Source: an uncultured beta proteobacterium
GTDB taxonomy: Bacteria > Pseudomonadota > Gammaproteobacteria > Burkholderiales > Burkholderiaceae_C
DNA: 64,000 nucleotides
Direction of reading: 5' to 3'
NCBI GenBank assembly: GCA_903828665.1
Contig: CAIKMZ010000078.1
Coordinates: 56,672 to 120,671, forward strand
Part shown: piece by piece, positions 1 through 25,543 of the stretch
Layout: every line of letters starts with the position of its first letter
How positions within the stretch are numbered: position 1 is the stretch's first letter
Notes under the pieces: generated by a model
Told to the model about the DNA's origin: nothing
Databases searched by the model: none
Seen by the model: the letters and a program-made list of their open reading frames with translations, nothing else
Translations under genes and position numbers: made by a program

Positions 1-450
1 GGAGCGCTCGGCCTGTGATTTCATGCCGACGAGATCGAGCACCGCCAGGGCGTCGTCGCGCCGGTAATCGGTGGCGCGGCGCCACATCGAAAACAGCTTG
101 CCGTCCTGCGACAGCAGCGCCATCTGCACGTTCTCCACCACGGTCAGCGAGGCAAAGGTCTCGGCGATCTGGAAGGTGCGGCCAACGCCGCGGCGCCAGA
201 TCTCGCGCGGCTTGCGTCCCACCAGTTCCTGGCCATCGAGCTGGATCGAGCCGCTGTCGGCGCGCAACTGCCCGTTGACCATGTTGAAGGTGGTCGATTT
301 GCCAGCGCCATTGGGCCCGATCAGCGCCAGCAACTCGCCGGCGGCGAGGTCGAAATGAATGCCATCGACCGCGCGCACGCCGCCGAAGGATTTGCCCAGA
401 CCGGCAACGCGCAACAGCGGCACCGAGGCAGTCGCTGCAAGCGCGCTCAT
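1..450 (-). CDS. Branched-chain amino-acid-type ABC transporter ATP-binding protein (LivG-like), 3' end outside window
   Basis: Minus-strand translation from ATG at 450 reads MSALAATASVPLLRVAGLGKSFGGVRAVDGIHF..GPNGAGKSTTFNMVNGQL; Walker A present; start overlaps the stop of the LivHM ORF. Confidence 0.85.
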   Translation of the reverse strand, partial: MSALAATASVPLLRVAGLGKSFGGVRAVDGIHFDLAAGELLALIGPNGAGKSTTFNMVNGQLRADSGSIQLDGQELVGRKPREIWRRGVGRTFQIAETFASLTVVENVQMALLSQDGKLFSMWRRATDYRRDDALAVLDLVGMKSQAERS

Positions 451-2345
451 AAGCCGGCCTCCTGCTTGTCACGGCGCCGGTCGGCAAACTGCTTGACGAA
501 ACCGGCAATGCCCTGCGGAAACAACAGCACCAGGATGATGATGATGGCGCCCAGCATGGCGCGCCAGTAATCGGTGTTGCGCGCAACCGTGTCGTGCAGC
601 CAGGTGAAGGTCACGGCGCCGACCACCGGGCCGGCCAGCGTCTGGATGCCGCCGAGCAGCACCATGACCAGGCCGTCGACCGACTTGCCCACCGACAGCG
701 TCTCGGGCGAGATGCTGCCCTTGGAAAAGGCGTAGAGCGCGCCGGCCAATCCGGCAAAGGTGCCGGCAATGGTGAAGGCCAGCCACTGCATGCGCTTGAC
801 ATCGATGCCGATCGCATCGGCGCGCAGAACCGAATCGCGTCCGGCGCGCAGGGTGTAGCCAAAGGGCGAGAACAGGATGCGGCGCAGGATCAGAACACCG
901 GCAGCGACCATGAACAGGGTGAGGTAGTAGTAGTTCTGCTTGTCGGACAGCCACTGCGCCGGCCAGACGCCGGTCAGGCCGTTGCTGCCGCCGGTGAAGC
1001 TGTCCCACTGGTAGGTGATGGCCCAGGTGATCTGCGCAAACGCCAGCGTCAGCATCGCCAGGTAAGTGCCCGACAGGCGCACGGCGAACCAGCCGAAGAT
1101 CAGCGCGCCCAGCGCCGCCACGAACGGCGCCACGAGCAAGGATGCCTCCATCGGCATGCCCGTGCTGCGCACCAGCAGCGCCGCGCCATAGGCGCCCAGG
1201 CCGAAGTAGGCAGCGTGGCCGAATGAATGCATGCCGGCCGGCCCCATGATGAAACTTAGGCTGGCGGCAAACAGCGCCGCCACCAGCAGGTCAATCGCCA
1301 GCACGACGGTGTAGGGCGAACCGGCGGTCGCGATCGGCAACGCGACCAGCGCCAGTCCAAGCAGCGCGGCAGCGATCAGGCCGGTCTTGCCGGCGCGGCG
1401 CAGCGGCTCTTCCGGGATGCCGACATAGCGGCTCGGTGCCTGCGCGCGGCCCATCAGGCCCCAGGGGCGCGCCACCAGCACGGTGGCCATCACGAGAAAT
1501 TCGACGACCAGCGTGAGCTTGGAGAATGACAGGCTAATGCCGGCGATCTCGACCACGCCGAGCCAGATGCAGACCGCCTTGATCTCGGCAATCAGGAGCG
1601 CTGCCACATAGGCGCCGGGGATCGAGCCCATGCCGCCCACCACCACCACCACGAACGCGGCGCCGATGGTGTTGAGGTCCATCTCCAGGCTCGCGGGTTC
1701 GCGCGGCAGTTGCAGCGCACCGCCTAGGCCGGCGAGCAGCGCGCCGAGCGCAAACACGGCCGTGAACAACCAGGCCTGGTTTACACCGAGGGCGCTGACC
1801 ATTTCACGGTCCTGCGTCGCGGCGCGCACCAGCGTGCCCCAGCGCGTGCGCGTCAGCAGCAGCCACAGCAGTCCCAGCACGACGGGGCCGACCACGATCA
1901 GGAACAGGTCATAGGAAGGAAAGGCTCGCCCCAGGATCTGCACCGCGCCGGACAGGCCGGGCGCCCTGGGGCCGAGCAATTCGTCCGGCCCCCAGAACCA
2001 GAGCACGCCATCCTTGATCACCAGCACCAGCGCAAACGTGGCCAGCAACTGGAACAGTTCGGGCGCCTTGTAAATGCGCCGCAGCAGCAGCATTTCAATC
2101 AGGGCGCCGAGCACGCCGACCACCACAGCGGCCAGCAGCAGTGCCGGCCAGAATCCGAGGCCGGTGCCCAGATGATTGACCAGGGTGTAGGCGACGTAGA
2201 TGCCGACCATGAAGAACGAGCCATGCGCGAAATTCACGATGCGCGTCACGCCGAAGATCAGCGAGAGGCCGGCCGCCACCAGGAACAGCGACGAGGCACC
2301 GGCGAGACCGTTGAGCAATTGGGCCAGGAAGCCTGAAAAATTCAT
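447..2345 (-). CDS. Fused LivH-LivM branched-chain amino-acid-type ABC transporter permease (632 aa)
   Basis: N-terminal half LivH-like (IFGVTRIVNFAHGSFFMVG), C-terminal half LivM-like (GPAGMHSFGHAAYFGLGAYGAALL) in one ORF. Confidence 0.9.
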   Translation of the reverse strand: MNFSGFLAQLLNGLAGASSLFLVAAGLSLIFGVTRIVNFAHGSFFMVGIYVAYTLVNHLGTGLGFWPALLLAAVVVGVLGALIEMLLLRRIYKAPELFQLLATFALVLVIKDGVLWFWGPDELLGPRAPGLSGAVQILGRAFPSYDLFLIVVGPVVLGLLWLLLTRTRWGTLVRAATQDREMVSALGVNQAWLFTAVFALGALLAGLGGALQLPREPASLEMDLNTIGAAFVVVVVGGMGSIPGAYVAALLIAEIKAVCIWLGVVEIAGISLSFSKLTLVVEFLVMATVLVARPWGLMGRAQAPSRYVGIPEEPLRRAGKTGLIAAALLGLALVALPIATAGSPYTVVLAIDLLVAALFAASLSFIMGPAGMHSFGHAAYFGLGAYGAALLVRSTGMPMEASLLVAPFVAALGALIFGWFAVRLSGTYLAMLTLAFAQITWAITYQWDSFTGGSNGLTGVWPAQWLSDKQNYYYLTLFMVAAGVLILRRILFSPFGYTLRAGRDSVLRADAIGIDVKRMQWLAFTIAGTFAGLAGALYAFSKGSISPETLSVGKSVDGLVMVLLGGIQTLAGPVVGAVTFTWLHDTVARNTDYWRAMLGAIIIILVLLFPQGIAGFVKQFADRRRDKQEAGL

Positions 2346-2442: not shown

Positions 2443-3648
2443 TTAGTCGGGTGCGCGCAGCTTGGCGACTTCGGCGTCGGACGGCAGGTACTTGGCGCCG
2501 TCGAAATAGCTGTAATTCACCATCACGCCCTTGCCGCCGTCGTTCTTGGTCTTGCCGACGTAGGCGCCCATGGTGGACTGGTTGTCCTGCGCACGGTAGG
2601 TGATCTTGCCAAACGGGCTGTCAACCTGCAGACCCTTGAACGCCGCCACAAGCTTTTCCGTGTCACTGCTTCCGGCTTTCTTCAGACCGGCCGCGATCGA
2701 CTTGACTGCGGTGTAGCCCACCACCGAACCCAGGCGCGGGTAATCCTTGAACTTGGCCTGATAGGCTGCCAGAAAGGCCTTGTGCTCCGGTGTCGCAATG
2801 CCGTACCAGGGGTAGCCGGTGACGACCCAGCCATTGGGCGCTTCTTCCTTGAGCGGATCCATGTACTCAGGCTCGCCGGTCAACACACTGACCACTTCGC
2901 GGCCCTGGAACAGGCCGCGCGTATTGCCTTCGCGCACGAACTTCGACAGATCGGCGCCGAACAGCACGTTGAAGATCGCGTCCGGCTTGGCGTCGGCCAG
3001 GGCCTGCACCACGCTGCCGGCGTCAAGCTTGCCCAGCGGCGGCGCCTGCTCGACGACAAATTCCACATCCGGCTGCGCTGCCTTGAGCAGCTGCTTGAAC
3101 GCGGCCACGGCCGACTGCCCGTACTCGTAATTGGGGTACACGAGAGCCCAGCGCTTCTTCTTCAGTTTGACGGCCTCCGGCACCAGCATCGCGGCCTGCA
3201 TGTAGGTGCCCGGGCGCAGACGGTAGGTGTACTTGTTGCCGCTGCCCCAGATGATCTTGTCGGTCAGCGGTTCGCCGGCGAGGAAGAAGAATTTCTTCTG
3301 CTTGGCGAAATCGGCCACCGCCAGCCCGGTGTTGGACAGGAAGGTGCCCATCAGCACATCGACCTTCTCGCGCGAGATCAGCTCCTCGGCGACGCGCACG
3401 GCATCGCCGGGGTTGGCGTTGTCGTCACGCGTGATCAGCTCGAGCTGCTTGCCGTTGACGCCGCCTGCTGCGTTGACCTCGTCGATGGCGAGCTCCATGC
3501 CCTTCTTGTAGGGTTCAAGAAAGGCCGGTTGCGCCTTGTAGCTGTTGACCTCGCCGATCTTCATGACACCTTGGGCTTGCGCCGATGTCAGAAAGGCCAA
3601 GGTGGCGGCAAAGCTGGCAGTGTGCAGCATCGTTCTCAGCATCTTCAT
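2443..3648 (-). CDS. ABC transporter substrate-binding protein, LivK type
   Basis: Signal peptide and periplasmic-binding fold sequence (MKIGEVNSYKAQPAFLEPYKKGMELAIDEVNAAGGVNG), operon with LivHM/LivG. Confidence 0.88.
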   Translation of the reverse strand: MKMLRTMLHTASFAATLAFLTSAQAQGVMKIGEVNSYKAQPAFLEPYKKGMELAIDEVNAAGGVNGKQLELITRDDNANPGDAVRVAEELISREKVDVLMGTFLSNTGLAVADFAKQKKFFFLAGEPLTDKIIWGSGNKYTYRLRPGTYMQAAMLVPEAVKLKKKRWALVYPNYEYGQSAVAAFKQLLKAAQPDVEFVVEQAPPLGKLDAGSVVQALADAKPDAIFNVLFGADLSKFVREGNTRGLFQGREVVSVLTGEPEYMDPLKEEAPNGWVVTGYPWYGIATPEHKAFLAAYQAKFKDYPRLGSVVGYTAVKSIAAGLKKAGSSDTEKLVAAFKGLQVDSPFGKITYRAQDNQSTMGAYVGKTKNDGGKGVMVNYSYFDGAKYLPSDAEVAKLRAPD

Positions 3649-3690: not shown

Positions 3691-4275
3691 TCAACGCAGA
3701 CCATCCTGGCCCACGATCTCACTCACCTGCAAACCGCCAATGCGCGCCAGGGGCCGCCCACTGGACGTGACCGCCACCGCGACCACGATCTCGTTGGCGC
3801 GCGGTGCGTCGCTGACACGCGCCTCGATAGCATCGAAGTGGCTGCGCACAAAGGCCGCATCCTTGTGCCCCAGGGGCACGTCGAGCGCCGTGCCGAGCCC
3901 GCCCATCTTCTTGGCCGAGGGCACCAGCGCCGCGCCTTTTTCAACCGCCTTGCGCAGCGGCGCGCCGAGCTTGGGGTGCAGGATGGCGGCCGCATGTTCG
4001 AGTTCGCCGGCCTCGCCGACAATCGCGCCCTTGCCGTAGCTTTGCGCCTGGCCCGGCGCTATGCCCAGAGCCTCCACGCATTTCTGCCCAAGCAGCGCGC
4101 CGAGCTCCTCGCCGATGGCGATCAACTCGTCGAGGTTTTCCGAATAACGCCCGGCAAACGGGTTCTCGATCACCGCCATGGCCAGAGCGCGGCGTGTCGG
4201 CGGATCAATGGGCCGGCCCATCTCGATGCGTGTTTCATCGACTTGCACGATGATCTTGCGAATTTTGGCGCTCAT
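3691..4275 (-). CDS. DUF1185 / 'amino acid synthesis' family protein (copy 1)
   Basis: MSAKIRKIIVQVDETRIEMGRPIDPPTRRALAMAVIENPFAGRY..; ATG at 4275; homologous to the next ORF. Confidence 0.75.
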   Translation of the reverse strand: MSAKIRKIIVQVDETRIEMGRPIDPPTRRALAMAVIENPFAGRYSENLDELIAIGEELGALLGQKCVEALGIAPGQAQSYGKGAIVGEAGELEHAAAILHPKLGAPLRKAVEKGAALVPSAKKMGGLGTALDVPLGHKDAAFVRSHFDAIEARVSDAPRANEIVVAVAVTSSGRPLARIGGLQVSEIVGQDGLR

Positions 4276-4310
4276 GGCTTGTTCCTTTCGTGTTGCTGGG
4301 TGCAGAGGGT

Positions 4311-4952
4311 TCAGCGCAGGCCGTCCCACTGGCTGATGGCGCTGGCGGCCAGGCCGCCGACGCGCGCATGAATGCGCGCTCCCGAGCTCATCGCGAGTAT
4401 GTAGACAATTTCATCCGACGCCGGCGCACCCGGAACACGCACTTCGATGGCGTCGAAATGGCTGCGCACATAGCTGGCGTTGATGTGCGTCAACGGCACA
4501 TCGAGCGCCGTGCCCGGAGCGCCGACTTTTTTGGTCGAGGGCACGATCGCCAGCGCATTGCCCGGCTGGCCGGTCTTGGCTTCGCCCTGCCCCTTGGCGT
4601 AGGCGCTGCGGTCACCCTTCCAGCCCAACAACTCGCGCATCGCGTAGCCGCCCGGCACATGCCAGAGCGCGCCGTGCTCGAGCTCGCCTGCGGCACCGAC
4701 GATGGCGCCTTTGCCGTAGCCTTCGATGCGCTCGGGCGGCAGTTGCATGGCGGCCAGCAGACGCCGGGCCATGTCGACGCCCACCGGTTGCAAGGCGTCC
4801 ATCATCGGCAGGATGTCGCTCTCATAGCGACCGGCGAACGGATTGGTCAGCACCACGCCGATCGCACCGCGCAGCAGCGGCGTCGCGGCCACCGGTCCAA
4901 ACTCATGGTGGATCTGCTCCACGTGGGTAAAGATGCGTCGTATTTCAATCAT
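4311..4952 (-). CDS. DUF1185 / 'amino acid synthesis' family protein (copy 2)
   Basis: MIEIRRIFTHVEQIHHEFGPVAATPLLRGAIGVVLTNPFAGRYE..; shared NPFAGRY, GKGAIVG.AGELEH and HFDAIEVRV motifs with copy 1; ATG at 4952. Confidence 0.75.
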   Translation of the reverse strand: MIEIRRIFTHVEQIHHEFGPVAATPLLRGAIGVVLTNPFAGRYESDILPMMDALQPVGVDMARRLLAAMQLPPERIEGYGKGAIVGAAGELEHGALWHVPGGYAMRELLGWKGDRSAYAKGQGEAKTGQPGNALAIVPSTKKVGAPGTALDVPLTHINASYVRSHFDAIEVRVPGAPASDEIVYILAMSSGARIHARVGGLAASAISQWDGLR

Positions 4953-4975
4953 CGCTTTGCGTCCATCCTGTTTCT

Positions 4976-5893
4976 TCAAGCAAATTGCAAGCCAGTTCGC
5001 GCCTCTTCCTGCCGTGTCGGCGCGGCGCGCAGCCTGACAGTATCGACGGTTCCGGTGCTGACGAACTGATCCTGGCAAACCAGTGCGGCTGACCAGATCA
5101 GGCCGGCCGCGCGCAAAGCCTGCGCACGAATCAGCCCGACCTGCAAGGCCTGCGCGACCAATTCCGGTTCCAGCGCCGGAACATCGACCGTCACCGGGAT
5201 GACCCCGAGGTCGCTGTCGTCCTTCAGGTCGCAAGCCGGCCGGCGAGTGATGCGCGGGTCGGCCACATTGACGGCGTTGGCGATGACGGTGGCCGCGGCG
5301 TCGGCAGCCGCCGCGCTGCGCGCCAGCACCGTCACGCTGTCGGCAATGCCCAGCGAAAAACTGCGGCCGCGCCAGCCACTGGTGGCGACACCGCGCACCG
5401 GCAGTTCGCTCGACACCTCGAACTGACCGTCGATGCTGATACCGTCGCGCAGCTGCGCCGGATCGAAGCGCGCCAGATCGGCATACAGCCCGATGCGCAG
5501 CGACTGACCGGGCGCGAGGTGCAGGGCGATATCGCCGCCGTTGTTGACCCAGGCGCGCGTGACACCGCCGCGCTCGTAGCAGGCGATCAGCTCCTGCGCC
5601 ACAGCGCCCGCCACCGCCGCCATCGGCGTGATGAAGCTTTCTGCGTAGGGCAGACAGGCATGCCACATGCTGCGCGCTACCACGCCTTGCAACCGACATT
5701 CGCCGGCGACGGGCGCGCGCAGCAGCGCCAGCTCGTCCACCAGTTCATCGAGAACGGTGGCGAAGCGGCGCCATGCATCGTCATGCGCTGCTGCCAGCGC
5801 CGAGGCACTGCCGCTGGCGCCGATGACGATATCCATCGGACCATGCTGGAAATGCCAGCGGCCATCCGGGAGTTGCGAGCGCTGCGCGGCCAT
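4976..5893 (-). CDS. UPF0280 family protein (ApbE-like)
   Basis: 305 aa; MDIVIGASGSASALAAAHDDAWRRF..YAESFITPMAAVAGAVAQELI typical of UPF0280. Confidence 0.7.
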   Translation of the reverse strand: MAAQRSQLPDGRWHFQHGPMDIVIGASGSASALAAAHDDAWRRFATVLDELVDELALLRAPVAGECRLQGVVARSMWHACLPYAESFITPMAAVAGAVAQELIACYERGGVTRAWVNNGGDIALHLAPGQSLRIGLYADLARFDPAQLRDGISIDGQFEVSSELPVRGVATSGWRGRSFSLGIADSVTVLARSAAAADAAATVIANAVNVADPRITRRPACDLKDDSDLGVIPVTVDVPALEPELVAQALQVGLIRAQALRAAGLIWSAALVCQDQFVSTGTVDTVRLRAAPTRQEEARTGLQFA

Positions 5894-5905: not shown

Positions 5906-7528
5906 TCAGCCGAGCATGGGCGCTTGCCCGAGCGGCCACGGATTGGCGCTCTGGATTTGCTCCCATTTGCGCGCCAGCGGCGCACCTTCGTTGTGCCAGG
6001 CTCCCCGGCGCAGTGCATCTTCGAGCGTACGCACGTAGTCCATGTGGCCGCCCAGGGCACGGTAATCGTCGAGCTTCATGCAAAACTCGATGGGCGCGAT
6101 GATGGCCGGCGTCGGCACGGTGCCAAAACTGTTGTCCGGCATGCGCATGACATCGACCATCACGGTAATGCCGCCACCCGGCCAGACATACGCCGGTGCG
6201 CCGCCGAGCGTGACGTTGACCAAAGCGTTCTTGATGGCGCGTGTCAGCAGCACCGGGTTTTCTGTGACGCCGGCACGCAGGCTGCCACCCGCGCCGGCCA
6301 GGAACAGCACGGTGGTCATTGAGGGCTCGCAGTTCTCGCCAATGCGCTCCACGATGCGGCGCACCTCCGGCGGCATCTCCTGCTCCACCGGCTGCAACGC
6401 GTCGTCGAGCACGTACCAGCTCGCGTGCTCGCCGGTAGTCGACGTCATGAGCAGGCGCAAGCCCGGCCAGGCCGTTTGCGCATCCCAACCCTCGATGATC
6501 GACAGGGGCTCGACGATGTCCGTGCCGCCCCAGCCGGTGCCCGGATTGGCCACCTGAAAGTAGCGCCCGGGCGTGGATTTGCGGCCACGCAGCTTGATGC
6601 CAGATGGGCGCATATCAAGACAACGCCCCGACTGGTGTTCGGTCAGCACGCCGGTGATGTGGTCATCGACCACGACCACCTCGTCGGCCTTGCCAAACCA
6701 CTGCTCCGCGAAAATTCCGACGGTGGCCGAGCCGCAACCCAGGCGCATGCGCTTTTCCTCGACGCCGTTGACGATCGGGGCGCGGCCAGCCTGCACCAGC
6801 ATCTGCGCGCCGCCATCGATCGTGAGGTCGACAGCGCGCTTGTTGCACAGCGCCTCCATCATCTCGACCGTCACGCGGCCTTCCTTCTTGCTGCCGCCCG
6901 TGAGGTGATGGACACCGCCGAGCGACAGCATCTGCGAGCCGTATTCGGCCGTCGTCACATGGCCGACCACCTCGCCCTTGCAGCGCACGTTGGCCTGCTC
7001 GGCGCCCAGGAAACGGTCGGTGTCGATCTTCACCTTGAGGCTGCAGTAGCTGAAGATGCCTTCGGTCACCACCGTCACCAGATCCACGCCCGCGGCCTGC
7101 GATGAGACGATGAACGGCGCCGGCTTGTAATCGGGATAGGTCGACGAGGCGCCAACGCCGGTGATGAAGACCTGGTCGGCCAGCAGCAGATCGCCGTTCC
7201 ATGGCGGCGCATCAGCGTCGGCCGCTGCCGCATCCGGCGCGCTGCGCGGGAGAAAAGGCACGAGCACGCTCTCGTTGTCATCGAGTGCGCGGCGCAGCAT
7301 CACCACCGGATCGCAGCGCACCAGCGTGCCATCGCGGTTGGCATAACGGTCACAGGCGCCGGTGCGGCCGTTCGAGATCTGGCACAGCACGGGGCAGGCG
7401 TTGCACTCGATCTTCTCGCTGTTCATGCGCTCGTTGCGGGGACGCGCTTTTTCCCAGAGCTGGGAGTTCGCTCCAGTGTCCATCTCCGGCATGCCATCGG
7501 TCTTCGTGTGTTCGGTCATCGTGTTCAC
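5906..7528 (-). CDS. 6-hydroxynicotinate reductase-like Fe-S flavoprotein
   Basis: 540 aa; N-terminal cysteine cluster IECNACPVLCQISNGRTGACDRY; resembles proteins annotated as 6-hydroxynicotinate reductase; next to molybdenum hydroxylase and enamidase-like genes. Confidence 0.75.
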   Translation of the reverse strand: MNTMTEHTKTDGMPEMDTGANSQLWEKARPRNERMNSEKIECNACPVLCQISNGRTGACDRYANRDGTLVRCDPVVMLRRALDDNESVLVPFLPRSAPDAAAADADAPPWNGDLLLADQVFITGVGASSTYPDYKPAPFIVSSQAAGVDLVTVVTEGIFSYCSLKVKIDTDRFLGAEQANVRCKGEVVGHVTTAEYGSQMLSLGGVHHLTGGSKKEGRVTVEMMEALCNKRAVDLTIDGGAQMLVQAGRAPIVNGVEEKRMRLGCGSATVGIFAEQWFGKADEVVVVDDHITGVLTEHQSGRCLDMRPSGIKLRGRKSTPGRYFQVANPGTGWGGTDIVEPLSIIEGWDAQTAWPGLRLLMTSTTGEHASWYVLDDALQPVEQEMPPEVRRIVERIGENCEPSMTTVLFLAGAGGSLRAGVTENPVLLTRAIKNALVNVTLGGAPAYVWPGGGITVMVDVMRMPDNSFGTVPTPAIIAPIEFCMKLDDYRALGGHMDYVRTLEDALRRGAWHNEGAPLARKWEQIQSANPWPLGQAPMLG

Positions 7529-7634
7529 CCGGCTGCGGGCCGTTTGCCTTTTGAAGTCATGGTTGCAAGCGCAATGCCAGGCTGAAGAATATGTTGCGTT
7601 TGCTACATTTCATGCCAATGTAGCGCATAGCAAT

Positions 7635-10439
7635 TCAGACGGCATGGGTGTTTACCCCTCGTTCCGGCGCGGCCCTGCGCTGCAGGATGGCCAGCCGCAC
7701 GCGGTCCGGTGTGGCTGGTATCTGCCGCACGCGCACACCGGCGGCATCGTGGACCGCATTGAGAATCGCTGGCGCCGTCGCCACCAGCGCCGGCTCGCCC
7801 ACGCCTTTGGCGCCATAAGGCCCGAGCGGCTCGGTGTCCTCGATGATGTGGACCGTGATCGGCGGCACATCGCCAAAGGTCGGGATCATGTAGTCGTGCA
7901 GGTTGTCGGTGCGTCCGCTGACGTATTCCTCCATCAGGGCCAGGCCCAGGCCCTGCGCCACGCCACCGTGGATCTGGCCTTCGACCTGGGTCGGGTTGAT
8001 GGCGCGGCCCACATCGTGCGCGGCGTGGATGTGCAGCACCTTGACGGTGCCGAGCTCGAGATCGACTTCGACCTCGGCCACCTGTGCCGCAAAGCCGTAG
8101 CTCGCATACGGCACGCCCTGGCCGTTGGCGTCGAGCGGCACCGTCGGCGGATTGAAGTAGCCGCTGCCCGACAGCACATCACCCGACTCGCTGGCCGGCA
8201 GTGCGGCCAGATCGACCTGCTTGTGGACACCGGTATCGACGCCGCCGAGCAGCGTGCCCGCGATGCTCAGGCTGGCGTTCGGCCCCAGGCCAAGCAGCTG
8301 CAGCACGGCGCGCCGGATCTCTTCGCCCGCCAGCCGCGCCGCATTGCCGGAGACGAAGGTCTGGCGCGAGGCCGAGGTCTTGCCCGCGTCTTGCGTCAAA
8401 TCGGTATCGCCCATCACCTGGTCCACCAGCGCCACCGGCAGACCGACGGCATCGGCAAAGATCTGCGGCATCACCGTCGCGCTGCCCTGGCCGATTTCCT
8501 GCGCGCCGTTGTAGAGGAACAGTCGCCCGTTGCTGCGCACGGCGCCGGTCATCGTCGACGGGTTGGCGATCACCGTGTTGCCGATGCCGTACCACATGCT
8601 GGCGATGCCGGCGCCACGCCGCAAGGAACTGCCGGTGGCAACGGCCTGCTGGTTGAAGGCCAGCACGTTTGCGCGCGCCGCCTGCCAGGCCGGGCGCAGA
8701 ACTTCCAGGCACTGCACCATGCCAACGCTGCTGGAGAGCACCTGGCCGGTGGCCGTTGCCTGACCGGCGCGGATCGCGTTCTTCAGGCGGAACTCGAGCG
8801 GGTCGATGCCGACCTTTTTTGCCAGCTCGTCGAGCAGGGCTTCGGTCACGATGTGCGCCTGCGGCACGCCGAAGCCGCGGAAGGCGCCAGCGATCGCGTT
8901 GTGGGTGTAGACAGCGCGCGTCAACGCGCGCAGGTGCGGCACGAAGTAGGGTCCGGTCGAATGCACCGGCACGCGATTGGCCACCGTGCTGCCCCAGCTT
9001 GCGTAGGCGCCGGTGTTGAAGTCGCCATGGAAATCGAGCGCCGTGAGCATGCCATCGGCGTCGCATGCGTAGCGGGCGCGGATGCGCGAGGGATGGCGCT
9101 TGGTGGTCGAGGCCATCGACTCGGCGCGCGTGTAGACGGCGCGCACCGGGCGCTTCAAATGCCAGGCCGCCACCGCCAGCAGCGGCTGGATCGCGACGTC
9201 GAGCTTGCCGCCAAAACCGCCACCGACGGCCGAGGGCACGATGTGCACCGCGTGTTTGGGCAGCTTGAGCACGCGCGCCACTTCATCGCGGTCCATCACC
9301 GGCGTCTGCGTGCAGGCGAAGATGCGGATGCGCTGCTCGCCGTGGTCGTCGAACACTTCGGCGTAACCGGCTTCCGGCTCGATGTACGCGTGCTCGACAT
9401 AGCTGGTGCGGTATTCGTCTTGCGCCACGAAAGCGGACTTTAGGATATGGCCGGCGGCATCGCCCTTGACGACACGGCCGCGGCACAGCACGTTCTCCGG
9501 CGCGAAGTCGTGCAGCAGATCGCCGGGCGCCGTCAGTGCCTTCTCCACGGTATCGAGCGGCGCCTGCACCTGCCAGCTGATGGGAACATCCGCCTCGGGG
9601 ATCGCCCTGACCGCGTCCATCGGACCGACGATCAGCAGCACGGCCTCGCCGCGCATGCGCACATGGCCATCGGCCAGCACCGGCTGATCCTTGGGCTCCG
9701 GGAACACCGCAAAGCTGTTTTCCGGAACGTCCCTGGCGGTGAAGACGGCGACCACCTCGGGGTAGCGGCGCTTGAAGGCGTCGAGGTCGCCCACGATGAA
9801 GGTAGCGCGTGCATGCGGCGATCGCACCGTGCGCAGCCACAGGCAGTCGCTCGGGTACTGATCGGCGCCAAATTTTTCGGCGCCGGTGATCTTGGCCTTG
9901 CCGTCGAGCCGTGCCAGACGCGCGCCCACGGCCTGCCCGGCCTCGGGCTGCGGCAAATCAAAGCGGCCATCGGCCACCGCCAGCACCGCTTCAACGATCT
10001 TGCGGTAGCCGGTGCAGCGGCACAGCACGCCGCCGAGCCCGTCGAGCACATGCTGTTCGGTCGGCGCGGGATGGCGCCGCAGCACATCGCTGGCCGCCAT
10101 CAACATCCCCGGCGTGCAAATGCCGCACTGCGTCGCCCCGTGTGCGAGGAAGGCCTGCTGCAGACGGTTGAGCTGACCGTCCTGCGCCAGCCCTTCGACC
10201 GTGGTGACGGTCTTGCCCTCGCATTGGGCCACCGCCGTCATGCACGAACACACTTGCTCGCCGTCGACCAGTACCGTGCAGGCGCCGCAGTCGCCGCTGT
10301 TGCAGCCGACCTTGGTCCCTGTCAAGCCCAGGTCATCGCGCAGCACGTCCGACAAGCGCTTGGTCGGCGCCACCGCCACATCGAGCGTCTTGCCGTTCAG
10401 ATGGAGGCGGATCGCCGGTTGCTGCTGCAGTTCATTCAT
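7635..10439 (-). CDS. Xanthine dehydrogenase-family molybdenum hydroxylase, fused [2Fe-2S] plus molybdopterin-binding subunit
   Basis: N-terminal GCNSGDCGACTVLVDG and QCGICTPGM 2Fe-2S motifs; C-terminal GGGFGGK, AFRGFGVPQ and catalytic GAKGVGEP; ATG at 10439 (MNELQQQ). Confidence 0.9.
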   Translation of the reverse strand: MNELQQQPAIRLHLNGKTLDVAVAPTKRLSDVLRDDLGLTGTKVGCNSGDCGACTVLVDGEQVCSCMTAVAQCEGKTVTTVEGLAQDGQLNRLQQAFLAHGATQCGICTPGMLMAASDVLRRHPAPTEQHVLDGLGGVLCRCTGYRKIVEAVLAVADGRFDLPQPEAGQAVGARLARLDGKAKITGAEKFGADQYPSDCLWLRTVRSPHARATFIVGDLDAFKRRYPEVVAVFTARDVPENSFAVFPEPKDQPVLADGHVRMRGEAVLLIVGPMDAVRAIPEADVPISWQVQAPLDTVEKALTAPGDLLHDFAPENVLCRGRVVKGDAAGHILKSAFVAQDEYRTSYVEHAYIEPEAGYAEVFDDHGEQRIRIFACTQTPVMDRDEVARVLKLPKHAVHIVPSAVGGGFGGKLDVAIQPLLAVAAWHLKRPVRAVYTRAESMASTTKRHPSRIRARYACDADGMLTALDFHGDFNTGAYASWGSTVANRVPVHSTGPYFVPHLRALTRAVYTHNAIAGAFRGFGVPQAHIVTEALLDELAKKVGIDPLEFRLKNAIRAGQATATGQVLSSSVGMVQCLEVLRPAWQAARANVLAFNQQAVATGSSLRRGAGIASMWYGIGNTVIANPSTMTGAVRSNGRLFLYNGAQEIGQGSATVMPQIFADAVGLPVALVDQVMGDTDLTQDAGKTSASRQTFVSGNAARLAGEEIRRAVLQLLGLGPNASLSIAGTLLGGVDTGVHKQVDLAALPASESGDVLSGSGYFNPPTVPLDANGQGVPYASYGFAAQVAEVEVDLELGTVKVLHIHAAHDVGRAINPTQVEGQIHGGVAQGLGLALMEEYVSGRTDNLHDYMIPTFGDVPPITVHIIEDTEPLGPYGAKGVGEPALVATAPAILNAVHDAAGVRVRQIPATPDRVRLAILQRRAAPERGVNTHAV

Positions 10440-11280
10440 GGATCGCCTCTTCAATGGCTCGTTTCACCAGCGTCAAAGCCGCATCGCGCCGATAGGCGAG
10501 CGTGCCACGCATGTCGTCAATCGGTGTGAGGGCAGCCAGATCGCCGGCCTCGGCCAGTTCCGACAGGCCCTTCAACGCCGGCCGGCCGATCAGCTTTTGC
10601 TCCAGTGCAGACAAGCGCTGCGCCACAGCCGAACAGGCGCCGACGGCAATGCCGGCATGGCGGATCACGTTGCCGGCATCGATATCCAGCACCACTGAGA
10701 CCATGGCGATCGAGATCACCAGATAGCGGCGATTGCCAAGCTTGAGAAAACTCGACCGCGCGGCCCGGCGTTTGGGAATCAGCAAGGCGCTGACCAGTTC
10801 GTTGGCGCGGCGCGCCGTCTTGCGGCTGCCCAGGACAAATTCGGTCAGCGCCAGGGTGCGCAGGCCCGCGCTCGATGCCAGCTCGACCTGCGCGTCGAGC
10901 GCCATCAGGGCGGGGATGCCATCGGCCGCCGGCGAGGCGTTGCAGATGTTGCCGGCCACGGTGCCGCTGTTCTGCACCTGAACGCCGCCCACCTGCGCCG
11001 CGGCCGCCTGCAGGCCGCGCAACTGGGCCGGCAGATTCGCGCGAACGAGATCGGTCCAGGTTGCGGTGGCGCCGATGCGCCACTGCGCACCCTCGTCACG
11101 GATGCCGCGCAGTGCCGCGATGGCCGTGATGTCGAGCACCGGTTCGGTGATCGCCTGCCCGTTGCGCACGGCATAGAAGTCCGTGCCGCCGGCCAATACC
11201 GTGTACGGCATCGAATCCAATGCGCCCAAGGCTTCGGCCAGCGTCTGCGGCCGCAGGTAAACGCCCATGCTGTTACTCAA
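10432..11280 (-). CDS. Molybdenum hydroxylase FAD-binding subunit (CoxM/NdhF type)
   Basis: YTVLAGGTDFYAVRNG and AGNICNASPAADGIPALMALDA FAD-binding motifs; overlaps the MoH large-chain start. TTG at 11280 or ATG at 11268. Confidence 0.9.
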   Translation of the reverse strand: MSNSMGVYLRPQTLAEALGALDSMPYTVLAGGTDFYAVRNGQAITEPVLDITAIAALRGIRDEGAQWRIGATATWTDLVRANLPAQLRGLQAAAAQVGGVQVQNSGTVAGNICNASPAADGIPALMALDAQVELASSAGLRTLALTEFVLGSRKTARRANELVSALLIPKRRAARSSFLKLGNRRYLVISIAMVSVVLDIDAGNVIRHAGIAVGACSAVAQRLSALEQKLIGRPALKGLSELAEAGDLAALTPIDDMRGTLAYRRDAALTLVKRAIEEAIHE

Positions 11281-11310
11281 TTGACTTGCCTCCCATGCTG
11301 CTCGATGGCC

Positions 11311-12510
11311 TCAGATTGCTGCGCCCAGCACCTCGGGAATGGCCGCTGCCGGCGGCGTGTTGCGGCTGCGCCCGCAGCGCACGATGCCATCGATCATGAC
11401 CATGCCCACGCCCGGAATGTCACCGAGCGCAACACTGTCGAGCAGCTGGCGCGCGGCGGAATGTTGGGCCGTGTCCATGAAGACAAAGTCGGCCGCGCGA
11501 CCGACCTCGATCAGGCCGCAATTGAGATTGCGGATGCGCGCCGTGTTGCCGGTGGCAAAACAGAACACCAGTTCGGCGGGAATGCCGGCCAGGCTGGAGA
11601 GCAGCGCCACCATGCGCAGCATGCCCAGTGGCTGCACGCCGGAGCCGGCAGGCCCGTCCGTGCCTAGGATTATGCGGTGCGGGCACTTGAGCTGCAACGC
11701 GGCCTGCGCCGCGGCGATCGCGACCTTCTCGTTGCCGTTGTGCACAATCTCAATCGCGCGCGAGGACTTCTCGCACAGCTCGCAGACGTGGGCTTCGGAC
11801 AAGGCGGTGTGCCCGCCGTTGATGTGGCCGATGACGTCGGCATCGGCTTCGAGCACCACGTCCTTGTCGATCAGTCCCGAGCCGGGGATCGAGGGGCCGC
11901 CGGTATGGATGGTGCTCTGGATGCCGTACTTGCGGGCCCACTGAACCATCTCGCGCGCCTCGTAGCCGGCCTTGACGGACCCCAGCCCCACCTCGCCCAG
12001 CAGCGTGACACCGGCAGCGGCGAGGTCCTTGAAATCCTGCTCGATCATGCCTTTTTCAATGATCGGCGCACCCGCGATCACCTTGACGCCGCCGGGGCGG
12101 AAATTGTCGAACGCCCGCTGCGCCGTGATGGCCAGGGCTTTCAGGCCGACGATGTCCTTCGGCCGTCCGGGCAGGTGCACTTCGCCCGCCGAGATCATGC
12201 TGGTAACGCCGCCGTGCATGGTGGAATCGATCCAGCCGGTCTGGTTCTGGCGCGGCGTCCAGTCGCCAAACACCGGGTGCACGTGGCTGTCGATCAGGCC
12301 CGGGCAGACGCAGGTCTGGTGCGCGTCGATCACGGTGCGCGCATGCGCCACGTCGCAATCCTTAAGCTTGCCGACAGCCACGATCAGGCCGTCGTTGATG
12401 ACGATGGTGTCCGCATCCAGGATCGGCTGGTCGATGTCGCCCGACAGCAGCAGGCCGATATTGCGGATGACGACTTTGCCCGATTTTTCGCTAGGTGCCG
12501 CAGTTGCCAT
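11311..12510 (-). CDS. Amidohydrolase-family protein, enamidase-like
   Basis: RNIGLLLSGDIDQPILDADTIVINDGLIVAVG..GLIDSHVHPVFGDWTPRQNQTGWIDSTMHGGVTSMISAGEVHLPGRPKDIVGLKALAIT; resembles the recalled Eubacterium barkeri enamidase pattern; ATG at 12510. Confidence 0.75.
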   Translation of the reverse strand: MATAAPSEKSGKVVIRNIGLLLSGDIDQPILDADTIVINDGLIVAVGKLKDCDVAHARTVIDAHQTCVCPGLIDSHVHPVFGDWTPRQNQTGWIDSTMHGGVTSMISAGEVHLPGRPKDIVGLKALAITAQRAFDNFRPGGVKVIAGAPIIEKGMIEQDFKDLAAAGVTLLGEVGLGSVKAGYEAREMVQWARKYGIQSTIHTGGPSIPGSGLIDKDVVLEADADVIGHINGGHTALSEAHVCELCEKSSRAIEIVHNGNEKVAIAAAQAALQLKCPHRIILGTDGPAGSGVQPLGMLRMVALLSSLAGIPAELVFCFATGNTARIRNLNCGLIEVGRAADFVFMDTAQHSAARQLLDSVALGDIPGVGMVMIDGIVRCGRSRNTPPAAAIPEVLGAAI

Positions 12511-12563
12511 GGGTTGCCCTTTCGATAGGTGTTGAAGTGATGGTGTCGGTGCGCCCGCCGGCG

Positions 12564-13253
12564 TCACGGTTCCAGCATGACCGTGCGCAGCACGGTGCTG
12601 ACGATGAAGGACTGCCACTGCGCCAGTGCCTGCGGCGTGCGCAGGTCTTCGCCAAGAAAGGTCGACAGCGTGTGACCGTTGGAAAGGTAGAAATAGCCGA
12701 GCGCCGCGATCAGCAGGTAGACATTGCGCGCCGGCACATCGCTGCGGAACAACCCCTGGCGGGCACCGCTGTCGAGCAGCTGCGCGATGATCGCGATGGC
12801 CGATGACGAGTATTCCCGGGCGCGCGCCGATTTGGAGATATGTTTGCCGCGGTGCAGGTTTTCCACATTGATCAGCGTGATGAATTCCGGGTGCTTGTGG
12901 TAATAGGAAACCACAAAGCCGACCACCTCGGTGAGCGACGCGACCGGCTGCTCGAGATCGAGCTTGAGCTCCAGCTCGGCGTCGTTCATGCGCCGGTACA
13001 TGTCTTCCAGCACTTCGATGAACAGGCCTTCCTTGCTGCCGAAATAGTAGTAGATCATGCGGTCGAACGACTTCGCCGCGCTCGATATTTTTTCAACGCT
13101 GCCACCCTCGTAGCCATAGCGGGCAAAGACCTTGGTCGCGGCCTTCAGGATATTGTTGCGGGTGTTCTTGACTTGCGGGTCGCGCACCGCGGCGGCCTTG
13201 GCCGAGGCGCTGCGGACCGGCGCTGCGCGCGGTTTGCTGATCTTCGCAGTCAT
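12564..13253 (-). CDS. TetR/AcrR family transcriptional regulator
   Basis: NNILKAATKVFARYGYEGGSVEKISSAAKSFDRMIYYYFGSKEGLF HTH. Confidence 0.88.
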   Translation of the reverse strand: MTAKISKPRAAPVRSASAKAAAVRDPQVKNTRNNILKAATKVFARYGYEGGSVEKISSAAKSFDRMIYYYFGSKEGLFIEVLEDMYRRMNDAELELKLDLEQPVASLTEVVGFVVSYYHKHPEFITLINVENLHRGKHISKSARAREYSSSAIAIIAQLLDSGARQGLFRSDVPARNVYLLIAALGYFYLSNGHTLSTFLGEDLRTPQALAQWQSFIVSTVLRTVMLEP

Positions 13254-13277
13254 GGCGTCGTGGGCAGAGGATGGGGT

Positions 13278-13606
13278 TCAGCGGATCAGCAGCGGCAGCT
13301 TGCCGGCCTTGCCCAGCCACTCGTCGGCGTCGGGCAGCGGATCCTTGCGCTTGGTGATCCCCTTCCAGCTCGGCAGGCGCGCCAGCTCCGCGTTGAGCTT
13401 GGTCATGTGCTGCTGATCGGCCGGGACATCCTCCTCCGCAAAAATGGCGTTCGCCGGGCACTCGGGAATGCAGACCGCGCAATCGATGCACTCGTCCGGA
13501 TCGATGGTCAGGAAATTCGGGCCTTCACGGAAGCAGTCGACCGGGCAGACGTCCACGCAGTCGGTGTACTTGCACTTGATGCAGGCTTCGGTTACGACAT
13601 GGGTCA
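13278..13606 (-). CDS. 7Fe/8Fe-type ferredoxin (FdxA-like)
   Basis: [58 protein letters not shown] start at 13606 preceded by AAGGAGG. Confidence 0.88.
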
Positions 13607-13833
13607 CGAGTGCCTCCTTGTGGCGCCGGGCAGGGCCGCGGCGACGGGTTCGATGGCAGCAATCTGCCACGCCAGTGTAGCATCCACCACAATTAAATGT
13701 AGTGAATACAACATATTGGAGAATAGCACGGGAAATGCCGCCGCGCGTCTTGCACCGGAAAACGCCATGCGCTACATTTGGACTCCATACGTTGAGCGAA
13801 TCGGCGCGGGCCGATTCAAACCCTGATCTGACC

Positions 13834-15537
13834 ATGCGCAAATACCTGAACATCCATCTCGCCGACCGACAGGTCAAAACGGAAGAATTTCACGGCGAGG
13901 CCGTGGTGCGAGCCGGCCGCTATTTCATTGCGAAGACGCTGCTCGGGATGGGGGTGGCCGAGGTCGACCCGCTGTCGCCGCGCAATCCGCTGATCTTTTC
14001 GGCCGGCCCCTTCGCCGGAACGAATTTCTCCAACGCCAACCGGCTCAGCGTCGGCTGCAAGAGCCCGCTGACCGGCGGCATCAAGGAAGCCAATACCGGC
14101 GGCACCTTCGGCTTCGCGCTCGGGCAGCTCGAGATCTGCGGTTTCACGCTGCATGAAGCCGCTTCCGAATGGACCGTTCTGCGCATCACCAAGGACGGCC
14201 AGATCACGTTCGAGGGCGCGCAGGACTACATGGGCAAGGGCAACAATGAAGTGGCGCGCATGCTGTTCGAGAAGTACGGCAAGAAGATCAGCTTCGCGCT
14301 GTGCGGCCCGGTGGGCGAGTATCTGGGGCTGATGGCCGGTATTTCGTTTGCCGATACCGACGGCCGCCCGTCCCGGCTGGCGGCGCGCGGCGGCGTCGGC
14401 GCGGTGCTGGGCTCGAAGAAGATCAAGGCCATCGTCGTCGACACCCACAAGATGCCGCCGTTCCACGACCGGCAGAAGGTGATGGGCGCGGTTCGCGAAT
14501 ACGGCGCCAAGCTCGGCAAGGAACCGGCCATCGACAACTTCAAGCGCCTGGGCACGGCGATGGTGGCGGACATGACCAACTACGTCGGCGGCCTGCCGGT
14601 GCGCAACTTCAGCGCCGGGCGCATGGTCGAGGAAAAGGACGGCCCGTTCAAGCTCGGCGGCGCCTACATCCGCGAGCTCAATCTGAGCCGTGGCGGCAAG
14701 ACCGCGCACGATTGCATGCCCGGCTGCATGATCGAGTGCAGCAACGTCTACATGGACGACAAGGGCCAGGAACTGGTGTCGCCGCTCGAGTACGAGACGC
14801 TGGGACTGGTGGGCAGCAACTGCGGTCTGCAGGACCCGGACGATGTGGCGCGCCTGAACGCCGTGGCCAACGACCTTGGCATCGACACGATCGAGCTCGG
14901 CGCAACGCTGGGCGTGCTGATGGAGGCCGGACAGGGCGCCTTCGGCGATGCCGATTTCATGATGGCGGCGCTCGACGACATCCGCAGCGGCAACGCGCGC
15001 GGATGCCTGCTGGCGCAGGGCACGGCCAGGGTCGCGGCGCACTACCAGGTGGCCCGGGTGCCGGTCATCAAGCGCCAGGCCATCAGCGCCTATGATCCGC
15101 GCGTCATCGAAGTGACCGGCATCTCGATGATGCTCACCGCCCAGGGCGCCGATCACACGGCGGGCAACCTGCCGGCGTTCGACTGCAAGGGCAGAAGCAC
15201 TGAAGAACTGGTCGCTGTCAGCCTGGGCGCGCAGGTCGCTGCGGCGGCCGCCGATTCACTGGGTTTTTGCATCTTCGGCCGCTCCGTGACCGACACCAAT
15301 CCGCAGCTGATCGTGACCGCGCTCAATGATGCGCACGGCACGCAGCTCGACGAATCCTTTCCGAAGACCATCGGCCGCGAAGTGCTTGAGCTCGAGCGGC
15401 AGTTCAACCGGCTGGCCGGTTTCACCGACAGCGACGACGAACTGCCCGCTTTCTTCTATGCCGAGGCGCTGGCGCCGACCGGCAACACGGCGCGCCATCA
15501 CGCGGCGGAAGTGAACCACTGCCTGAGCCAGCTCTAG
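13834..15537 (+). CDS. Aldehyde:ferredoxin oxidoreductase (AOR, tungstopterin) family protein
   Basis: [73 protein letters not shown] typical AOR N-terminus; ATG at 13834. Confidence 0.85.
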
Positions 15538-15558: not shown

Positions 15559-18504
15559 TCAGGCCGCCAGCAGCGCCGCGTTGCCGCCGGCGGCCGTGGT
15601 GTTGATGGTGATGGTCTGCTCGGCGCAGAAGCGGTACAGGTAGTGCGGGCCGCCCGCCTTCGGGCCGGTTCCCGACAGGCCTTCACCGCCAAAGGGCTGC
15701 ACGCCGACCACGGCACCGATCTGGTTGCGGTTGATGTAAACGTTGCCGACATGCGCGGCGTGCGCGAGGATTTGGGCGCGTGAATCGATGCGGGTCTGGA
15801 TGCCGATGGTCAGGCCGTAGCCCAGGGCGTTGATCTGCTCGATGACATCCACCGGATCGCCCGTCCAGCGCACGATGTGCAGCACCGGGCCGAAGATTTC
15901 CTGCTTCATGTCGGCGATCGATTGCACCTCGAAGGCCTGAGGCGCGATCAGGTTGGGTATGGCAGCCGTGGCCGCCAGCCCCAACAAAGGTCGCGCTTCG
16001 CTGTGCAGGCGCTTGACCTGCTGCGTGATGCCTTCAAAGGCCTCACGGTCGATCACTGGGCCGAGGTCGGTCGCCAGATCGGCCGGATCGCCGGCCACCA
16101 GTTCCTTGGCCGCGCCCTGGATCATCTCGATTACATGGTCGGCGATCTCGGCGTGCAGGCACAGCAGGCGCAGTGCCGAGCAGCGCTGGCCGGCGCTGCG
16201 GAAGGCCGACTGCATGACGGCGTCGCTGACCTGCTCCGGCAGCGCCGTGCTGTCGACCAGCATGGCGTTGATGCCACCGGTCTCGGCGATCAGGGGTACG
16301 ATGGCGCCGTCTTTCGCGGCCAGCGCGCGCTGGATGATCTTGGCAACCGCAGTCGATCCGGTGAACACGACACCGGCCACACCGCTCGCCGCCACCAGTG
16401 CCGCGCCAACCGTCTCGCCCGGGCCGTGCAACAGTTGCAAGGCATCTGCCGGCACGCCCGCCGCGTGCAAGAGGCGCACCGCCTCCAGCGCAACGCCGGG
16501 GGTTTGCTCGGCCGGTTTGGCCAGCACCGTGTTGCCGGTGGCCAGCGCGGCAGCAACCTGGCCGGCGAAGATCGCCAGTGGGAAATTCCACGGGCTGATG
16601 CAGACCCAGGGGCCGCGCGCGATCAGGCGCAACTCGTTGTTCTCGCCGGTCGGCCCCGGCATGGCGATCGGCGCCATCACGCGCTCGGCTTCATTGGCGT
16701 AGTAGTGCAGGAAGTCGACCGCCTCGCGCACTTCGGAGACCGCATCCACCCAGGTCTTGAAGGCTTCGCGCACCAGCAGCGCGCAAAAGCGCGGCAGTTC
16801 TGCTTCCAGCGCGTCCGCCGTGCGCCGCAGCATGGCAGCGCGATCAGCGACATCGGTGCGGCTCCACTGCCTGAAGCAGTCGGCGCTGCGCTTGAGTGCC
16901 TCACCAACCCGTTGCGTGTCGAACACCGGCACCAGCGGAACCTGCGTCGATTGATACGCGGCCAGCAGCGGCTCGCGCATGGACTGCACCGTGAGGTCCA
17001 GGCCCGCGCTGTTGCGACGCGCCGCGCCGAACAAATCCAAGGGCAGCGGCAGCGAGGACTCCGGTTCGAGCCGCAGCGGCGAGATCAGCAGTTCGTTGAT
17101 CGCAACCGATTCGTCGGCGAGCTGGTGCACGAAGGACGAGTTGGCACCGTTCTCCAGCAGGCGGCGCACAAGGTAGGCCAGCAGGTCCTTGTGCGCGCCG
17201 ACCGGGGCATAGACGCGGCAGGCGATCAGGGGATTCTTCAGCACCTCGCGGTAGATGCCTTCGGCCATGCCGTGCAGGCGCTGCAGTTCAAACGGCGCAC
17301 CGCTGCGCGCGGCCATCTGCAGGACGGCAGCGATGGTCGACGCGTTGTGGCTGGCGAACTGCGGGTAGATCGCGTCGGGCGCATCGAGCAGCACGCGGGC
17401 ACAGGCCAGGTAGGAAATATCGGTGTGGTGCTTGTGCGTGAAAACCGGGTAGGCCGGCAGGCCGTTCTCCTGCGCGCGCTTGATCTCGGCGTCCCAATAG
17501 GCGCCCTTGACCAGTCGGCACATCAGGCGGATCTTGTACTGGCGCGCCAGCGCGATGACGTGCTCGATCTGCTGCAGCGATCGCGTCTGGTAGGTCTGCA
17601 TCGCCAGGCCAAAGCCGCCCCATTGCGGGAAGTGCTGCGCCACACGGCTGACCAGCGCCTCGAACACTTCGAGCGAGAGCTCGAGACGGTCGACTTCTTC
17701 CGAGTCGATCGTGAGGTTGATGTTGGCCCTGGCCGCCTGCTCGCACAGTCCCCAGACACGCGGCACCAGCTCGGCGAGCACGCGCCCGGTGTGCGCATCC
17801 TCGTAGCGTGGATGCAGGGCGCTGAGCTTGATCGAAATGCCGTCGTTGACCTCGCAAACACCACTGGCAGCGGCATGGCTTGCAATGAAGGCAATCGCGT
17901 TCTGATAGCTCGCAAGGTATTGCAGTGCATCGGCATCGGTGCGCGCACCCTCGCCCAGCATGTCATAGCTGTATCGCAAGTTCTTTGCCTTGCGCCGCGC
18001 CGCATTGGCTTCGTCCATCGCCTCGGTGATGGTCTGGCCCAGTACGAACTGGCGCCCCAGCAATTGCACGGCGCGCAGCGTAGCGGCCACCACGGAGCGC
18101 GCGCCGAGCTTGGCAAAAAGGCCTGTTGGCGCTTCGCTGTCAGGCAGGAATTTCTTGCTCATCGCGATGGCCGTGCTGGACAGACGCGCCAGCGTCTTGT
18201 CGCCGGCGCTGTGGAAGTCGGCGCGGCCCAACTGGTCGGCGGTCAGCGCAATCGCGGTGGCGGCATCAGGCACGCGCAGCAGGGCCTCGGCCAGACGCAT
18301 CAGGGCCAGACCTTCGGCGCTGGAAATCGGGTATTCCTTGAGCAGGCTCTCCATCGCCCAGAACGGGGGCGGGTTCGCGCGCACCGCCTGCACCCAAGGT
18401 GTGGCGACCTTGGCGACGGCCGCCCAATCGAGCGCGCCACTGAGCGAGCCGAGGTGCTGGGAAACTATTTCGGCTTCGGGACGGTAAGGGAATGGCAGGC
18501 GCAC
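15559..18504 (-). CDS. putA: Bifunctional proline dehydrogenase / L-glutamate gamma-semialdehyde dehydrogenase (short PutA, no RHH domain)
   Basis: 981 aa; PRODH motifs (RLVKGAYWDAEIKRAQ, YAPVGAHKDLLAYLVRRLLENGANSSFV) and ALDH motifs (SAGQRCSALR, GGEGLSGTGPKAGGP); GTG start. Confidence 0.93.
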   Translation of the reverse strand: MRLPFPYRPEAEIVSQHLGSLSGALDWAAVAKVATPWVQAVRANPPPFWAMESLLKEYPISSAEGLALMRLAEALLRVPDAATAIALTADQLGRADFHSAGDKTLARLSSTAIAMSKKFLPDSEAPTGLFAKLGARSVVAATLRAVQLLGRQFVLGQTITEAMDEANAARRKAKNLRYSYDMLGEGARTDADALQYLASYQNAIAFIASHAAASGVCEVNDGISIKLSALHPRYEDAHTGRVLAELVPRVWGLCEQAARANINLTIDSEEVDRLELSLEVFEALVSRVAQHFPQWGGFGLAMQTYQTRSLQQIEHVIALARQYKIRLMCRLVKGAYWDAEIKRAQENGLPAYPVFTHKHHTDISYLACARVLLDAPDAIYPQFASHNASTIAAVLQMAARSGAPFELQRLHGMAEGIYREVLKNPLIACRVYAPVGAHKDLLAYLVRRLLENGANSSFVHQLADESVAINELLISPLRLEPESSLPLPLDLFGAARRNSAGLDLTVQSMREPLLAAYQSTQVPLVPVFDTQRVGEALKRSADCFRQWSRTDVADRAAMLRRTADALEAELPRFCALLVREAFKTWVDAVSEVREAVDFLHYYANEAERVMAPIAMPGPTGENNELRLIARGPWVCISPWNFPLAIFAGQVAAALATGNTVLAKPAEQTPGVALEAVRLLHAAGVPADALQLLHGPGETVGAALVAASGVAGVVFTGSTAVAKIIQRALAAKDGAIVPLIAETGGINAMLVDSTALPEQVSDAVMQSAFRSAGQRCSALRLLCLHAEIADHVIEMIQGAAKELVAGDPADLATDLGPVIDREAFEGITQQVKRLHSEARPLLGLAATAAIPNLIAPQAFEVQSIADMKQEIFGPVLHIVRWTGDPVDVIEQINALGYGLTIGIQTRIDSRAQILAHAAHVGNVYINRNQIGAVVGVQPFGGEGLSGTGPKAGGPHYLYRFCAEQTITINTTAAGGNAALLAA

Positions 18505-20730: not shown

Positions 20731-20743
20731 CATCCATGCCACT

Positions 20744-25527: not shown

Positions 25528-25543
25528 TCCGGAATCTTCAACT

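Follow-up and report, generated by a model that had tools for sequence, protein, structure and literature searches.

The nicotinate locus and its genes

We examined a 64,000-nucleotide window of contig CAIKMZ010000078.1, from an uncultured beta proteobacterium, which carries a nicotinate locus at positions 5906 to 15537 that includes a gene of the aldehyde:ferredoxin oxidoreductase (AOR) family. A preliminary description of this DNA had named a 6-hydroxynicotinate reductase (Hnr)-like gene, a molybdenum hydroxylase, an amidohydrolase, and a ferredoxin on the minus strand, and all of these genes were confirmed there. The AOR-family gene (13834..15537, plus strand) is divergent from the ferredoxin gene (13278..13607, minus strand), as had also been described. 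The gene list was nevertheless incomplete, having overlooked a TetR-family regulator, a UPF0280/ApbE-like protein, two AA_synth proteins, and an ABC transporter (447-3648). From 13607 to 447, the minus strand encodes the ferredoxin, TetR, enamidase, hydroxylase FAD subunit, fused FeS/Mo hydroxylase, Hnr, the UPF0280/ApbE-like protein, two AA_synth proteins, an ABC substrate-binding protein, and a LivHM permease. The core of the reductive nicotinate cluster (hnr-UPF0280-AA_synth-AA_synth-ABC plus enamidase) is present in the window. Clusters of this kind have been described from Azorhizobium caulinodans, Bradyrhizobium, Rhodopseudomonas, and strain SG-6C (PMC3511419). They share the reductive Hnr route, a putative nicotinate ABC transporter, and two conserved unknown proteins, with glutarate stated as a later intermediate; unlike for the window cluster, the text on them names no ferredoxin or AOR. 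Among the papers we could search, none connected an AOR with nicotinate or enamidase.

The amidohydrolase (11311..12618, minus strand; likely real start near 12510) aligns end to end with the Eubacterium barkeri enamidase 2VUN (370 bits, E = 2e-109, residues 47-429 to 2-384), and the next Protein Data Bank (PDB) chain scores 24 bits. By this homology, we regard it as a true homolog of enamidase, the ring-opening enzyme, in keeping with its earlier labeling as enamidase-like. The Hnr-like protein (5906..7528, minus strand) is 58 to 78% identical to plasmid genes across 87 to 100% of its length, and many of these are annotated as 6-hydroxynicotinate reductase. It had no match in Pfam, NCBIfam, or the PDB. 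Its N-terminal CxxCxxxC...C motif for an Fe-S cluster (C42, C45, C49, and C59) is invariant among 17 aligned sequences; an AlphaFold2 model from the 17 alignment rows had a mean pLDDT of 48.7. The Hnr of SG-6C is 42% identical to that of E. barkeri (PMC3511419), and it is via this figure, hence indirectly, that the window protein can be related to the E. barkeri enzyme. We conclude that the gene encodes a real Hnr homolog, with ferredoxin-dependent reduction of 6-hydroxynicotinate as its predicted activity.

A FAD subunit (10432..11280, minus strand) and a single polypeptide with 2Fe-2S and Mo domains (7635..10454, minus strand) make up the presumed nicotinate 6-hydroxylase. The window thus resembles the E. 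barkeri fermentation system (Hnr, enamidase 2VUN, and nicotinate dehydrogenase 3HRD) in its enamidase, its Hnr, and its FAD-type Mo-hydroxylase. It differs in having an AOR added, in the fusion of FeS and Mo parts that are split subunits in E. barkeri, and in that no 2-methyleneglutarate branch was recognized in the annotated part of the window. The earlier remark was that none of the downstream B12 mutase genes of E. barkeri is visible; the B12 mutase that is present is another one.

Properties of the AOR

The AOR gene encodes a single-subunit protein of 567 amino acids from an ATG at 13834 (a longer GTG frame opens at 13702), with AFOR_N and AFOR_C domains both above cut-off. Its best PDB match is PfAOR (1AOR; 180 bits, E = 5e-52). 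The Aromatoleum AOR (8C0Z) scores 132 bits; this NAD-linked AorABC enzyme belongs to the same betaproteobacterial AOR family, but the match is weaker and no AorA- or AorC-like partners lie beside the window gene, so we rejected an AorABC-type assignment. Ring reduction by the AOR itself, in the manner of BamB, was likewise rejected: the match to benzoyl-CoA reductase 4Z3W reaches 46 bits and covers the N-terminal part only. The positions of PfAOR Glu313, His448, and four Cys are invariant across nine aligned members of the AOR clade. The first Cys spacing is CxxxCxxxC, not CxxCxxxC. No small-subunit or NAD-subunit gene was found beside the AOR, whose neighbors are the ferredoxin and TetR genes and PutA.

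The protein resembles a class I tungsten oxidoreductase (WOR) such as PfAOR or BmWOR in its single large subunit and its conserved cofactor and Fe-S residues, and ferredoxin is its expected acceptor. It differs from these enzymes in forming its own clade with Thermus plasmid homologs (54% identity) and in its linkage to a ring reductase. Ferredoxin-linked, air-active, single-subunit WORs are known (PMC9424855, PMC13328260). One of them, BmWOR, was purified from an obligate aerobe (PMC9424855), so an enzyme of this type could suit a host that uses oxygen. That the metal is tungsten is presumed from the family, and the sole hint of it comes from genome G891, where Tup-like ABC transporter genes follow an AOR-clade member.

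Electron partners and hydroxylases across hnr loci

Whereas the core Hnr/enamidase/ABC cluster was already known (PMC3511419), our survey of hnr loci is new. It covered 80 Burkholderiales loci with 10-kb flanks where contigs allowed; some of the comparison genomes are metagenome-assembled, and counts depend on the samples drawn. The order hnr-UPF0280-AA_synth-substrate-binding protein-permease was nearly constant, with enamidase and TetR nearby. In most loci, a TetR 52 to 77% identical to that of the window adjoins the enamidase gene or hnr.

In 64 of the 80 loci, hnr faces a gene for a ferredoxin-NADP reductase (Fpr), of which plasmid CP099606 is an annotated example; a few of these genes are partial at contig ends, and in locus L071 the gene lies 8 kb away. 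Homologs of the window's ferredoxin, which by sequence is an FdxA-type 7Fe protein with a GTG start after AAGGAGG, have the same position opposite hnr in about 15 of the 80 loci (63 to 71% identity), as well as in genomes G729, G317, and G827. Fpr is absent beside hnr both in the window and in its sister locus L027, the only one of the 80 in which an AOR adjoins the cluster (Hnr 95% identical to that of the window). Fpr gave no match in the window's genome, which is 98.5% complete, while G171, G102, G179, and G317 matched at ≥80%. The gene could possibly lie in the missing 1 to 2%. Fpr is also the usual rather than the universal partner, since some other hnr-positive genomes lack a close Fpr. 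Three FNR-domain proteins do occur in the window's genome; by sequence they are AscD-type-like, BoxA-like, and an Nfn-like fusion of a GltD-like and an FNR domain.

The window also departs from its Burkholderiales relatives in its hydroxylase. In the window and L027, a fused FAD-type Mo-hydroxylase sits between the enamidase gene and hnr, whereas other Burkholderiales clusters have a non-FAD, NicB-like system in which a 2Fe-2S protein is encoded separately from a large Mo enzyme; in G729, the Mo enzyme bears cytochrome c domains. Among the hnr loci seen, counterparts of the FAD subunit were found only in L027 (87%) and on a Pseudosulfitobacter plasmid (51%). That plasmid also holds the nearest relative of the hydroxylase among hnr clusters (52%), adjoining an Fpr gene, together with hydantoinase-type genes. 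This exchange of enzymes would fit an explanation in which the hydroxylase closes the electron loop: nicotinate hydroxylation would reduce NADP or ferredoxin, which would then serve Hnr, and the AOR would have some other job. We consider this rather improbable. The Pseudosulfitobacter cluster, whose gene arrangement might seem to favor it, retains an FNR, which any NADPH formed there requires; moreover, AOR and hnr are linked in G729 and G1029 (below) with no FAD-type hydroxylase seen in those stretches.

A shared dyad upstream of hnr and AOR

The 581 bases between the TetR gene (12564..13253, minus strand; TetR_N and TetR_C_29 domains) and the AOR contain an 18-bp dyad, ATGTAGTGAATACAACAT, at 13697..13714, between ferredoxin/TetR and AOR and 120 bp before the AOR ATG. 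A second, weaker dyad with three mismatches lies just upstream of hnr (7591..7608), 63 bp before the gene. In 60 of the 80 loci, a relaxed form is found no more than about 200 bp upstream of hnr, and sites are strongly concentrated there: the 64 kb near hnr hold 75, and 1.4 Mb of other sequence holds 7. Because of this enrichment, the dyad is probably an operator of the cluster's TetR, and is likely to serve the nicotinate TetR throughout Burkholderiales. Membership of the AOR in the nicotinate regulon is well supported. A promoter and terminator scan of the gap between AOR and ferredoxin found none.

It could still be that the AOR is an unrelated neighbor, divergent by chance, and that the dyad controls nothing but the opposite-strand operon. 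Of the 80 loci, the window and its close sister are alone in having an AOR next to the cluster, and several genomes have AOR-clade genes standing alone, both of which fit such an accident. However, the dyad so close to the AOR is kept in L027 even though the ferredoxin gene is missing there, and AOR and hnr are independently linked in G729, G500, G317, and G1029. We therefore find a chance neighborhood very unlikely.

Linkage of AOR and hnr in other genomes

We defined close members of the AOR clade by at least 70% identity; those in Burkholderiales come from G317, G322, G329, G416, G500, G729, G827, and, as a partial gene, G811. With the window's own genome excluded, three of these eight genomes have hnr (G317, G729, and G827), against a background of 23 of 299 genomes sampled from the order (Fisher p = 0.02), a modest enrichment given that the samples and families differ. 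Physical linkage gives the stronger support. In G729, from another genus, one contig carries an unbroken same-strand run of hnr-UPF0280-AA_synth-AA_synth-substrate-binding protein-permease-ATPases-ndhS-NicB-EamA-AOR-MarR-fpr, and ferredoxin-TetR-enamidase is divergent from it. The AOR contig of G500 is a truncated nicotinate run with the same AOR end as G729. In G317, a third genus, 11 kb separate the AOR from hnr and a TRAP permease gene precedes the AOR, and in G827 the two genes are on separate contigs.

A class-wide search added more distant clade members (59 to 65%). One of them, in the non-Burkholderiales genome G1029, forms a tight 3.7-kb run of an Hnr homolog (62%), MarR, and AOR, with about 0.5 kb from hnr to AOR. 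The AOR tree is poorly resolved, but the window and G729 proteins fall on different branches, consistent with repeated or ancient linkage to hnr. Thus, the co-occurrence of AOR and Hnr anticipated by the preliminary description stands in part: the genes are co-localized in independent genomes (G729, G317, and G1029), but the pairing is rare, and the notion that AOR always accompanies Hnr and enamidase had to be rejected (a close AOR occurs in 1 of 24 genomes with hnr, and in 1 of the 80 loci). The AOR is, on these comparisons, an optional replacement or addition outside the general pathway, as most hnr genomes lack it.

A proposed electron loop between AOR and Hnr

We lean, with moderate confidence, toward the reading that this is a reductive Hnr/enamidase cluster in which the AOR, under the control of the cluster's TetR, replaces Fpr, oxidizes a pathway aldehyde, and feeds the electrons via ferredoxin to Hnr. 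The gene identities, the shared dyad, the failure to find Fpr, and the repeated AOR-hnr linkage support it at the level of sequence; the aldehyde substrate, the direction and carrier of the electrons, and the metal of the AOR are what we infer beyond these. The FAD-type hydroxylase would make 6-hydroxynicotinate, to which Hnr would add two ferredoxin-derived electrons, giving 1,4,5,6-tetrahydro-6-oxonicotinate. Enamidase would open the ring to give 2-formylglutarate and ammonia, and decarboxylation would yield glutarate semialdehyde. The AOR would oxidize this semialdehyde (or 2-formylglutarate itself) to the acid and pass two electrons to ferredoxin, which would supply Hnr again. With two electrons in and two out, the segment from 6-hydroxynicotinate to glutarate, ammonia, and CO2 would need no outside reductant. 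Because the potential of aldehyde oxidation lies well below that of NADPH, the AOR would also push ring reduction.

Glutarate semialdehyde is the more likely AOR substrate. In Azorhizobium, as reportedly found by Kitts et al. in 1992, decarboxylation follows ring opening, and the remaining C5 aldehyde is then oxidized to glutarate. If so, the semialdehyde would be the aldehyde oxidized, and the order proposed in the preliminary description, in which 2-formylglutarate is oxidized first and then decarboxylated, appears less likely. A glutarate route is supported by the G317 cluster, which also holds genes for a CoA-transferase III, an acyl-CoA dehydrogenase, and an electron transfer flavoprotein, fitting conversion of glutarate to glutaryl-CoA. 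A search of the 80 hnr loci for aldehyde dehydrogenase-family genes, in which the query's own locus served as the sole positive control, had no hits; ordinary clusters therefore have no obvious dedicated enzyme for the aldehyde step.

Several observations weigh against an AOR-driven Hnr. Close AORs occur in only 1 of the 24 hnr-positive genomes (the window's own) and 1 of the 80 hnr loci, a rarity from which it follows that Hnr works without AOR. No hnr was found in five Burkholderiales genomes of the AOR clade (G416, G322, G329, G500, and partial G811), no enamidase was found in the 20 kb seen around the G1029 run, and other clade members stand beside GlcDEF-like, TRAP-transporter, or heparinase-like genes. 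G729 and G317 carry both fpr and AOR, limiting any replacement to the window lineage. The Nfn-like fusion might itself reduce ferredoxin. Finally, L027 lacks a ferredoxin at the position held in the window, so the tie of this ferredoxin, earlier called dedicated, is not a strict one.

Some of these points would suit an AOR that belongs to the nicotinate regulon only to clear leaked pathway aldehyde, with Hnr drawing on NADPH through, for example, the Nfn-like fusion, and AOR-reduced ferredoxin being used elsewhere. Aldehyde detoxification is often ascribed to WORs (PMC13328260), the Nfn-like protein is a candidate NADPH route, and the retention of both fpr and AOR in two genomes agrees with a clearing role. 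That role sits poorly with the direct hnr-MarR-AOR run of G1029, whose 20 kb of visible sequence contain no fpr, and with the AOR occupying the place of fpr in the window lineage; we judge it unlikely.

If AOR does feed Hnr, the pyridine ring would be reduced without NADPH through a redox-neutral segment from 6-hydroxynicotinate to glutarate. A 2026 classification lists 92 WOR clades, and for only five of them has the physiological role of any member been defined (PMC13328260); the clade described here gains a testable pathway, substrate, and electron acceptor. More tentatively, and at somewhat less than even odds, Hnr and this AOR clade could form a recurrent two-enzyme redox module, with the hnr-marR-AOR run of G1029 as its bare form. 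Reduction of the aromatic ring would then be paid for by an aldehyde from further down the pathway, so that electrons would circulate within the catabolic route itself and an uncharacterized WOR clade would acquire a physiological role.

Other features of the window and of related loci

The UPF0280/ApbE-like gene (4976..5893, minus strand) adjoins hnr in nearly all loci. Next on the same strand come the AA_synth genes at 4311..4940 (end approximate) and 3691..4260 (end approximate; open reading frame to 4329). These proteins (3691-5893) accompany hnr even in alphaproteobacteria, and possibly serve in flavin attachment or a step after ring opening. The branched-chain-type ABC transporter comprises the substrate-binding protein (2443..3648, minus strand; identified by an annotated ortholog) and the fused LivHM-type permease (447..2345, minus strand), and an ATPase gene lies just left of the window edge. 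Two alphaproteobacterial hnr clusters (L163 and L164) have hydantoinase A/B-type genes and no enamidase match within the stretch seen, which suggests different ring-opening chemistry.

Members of the AOR clade have varied neighbors. A MarR gene lies directly beside the AOR in both G729 (L166, 913-1368) and G1029 (L186, 8644-9120). The Thermus thermophilus megaplasmid homolog (L139, 9004-10716) adjoins type III-B CRISPR genes. Those in L184 (5754-11495) and L185 (7841-11535) come immediately after genes for GlcF-like Fe-S subunits; L184 has a GlcE-like FAD gene as well. The Tup-like transporter after an AOR-clade gene in L189 (6300-10342) is a possible link to tungstate uptake.

In the window itself, PutA (15559-18504) lies tail to tail with the AOR, which ends at 15537. 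Downstream of PutA, the plus strand at 19549-26392 encodes a lysine 2,3-aminomutase-like radical SAM protein, a Zn-dehydrogenase-like protein, a lysine 5,6-aminomutase alpha subunit, a B12-binding subunit, and a beta-keto acid cleavage enzyme. This set resembles the genes of anaerobic lysine fermentation, and its B12 mutase is distinct from the 2-methyleneglutarate mutase of E. barkeri.

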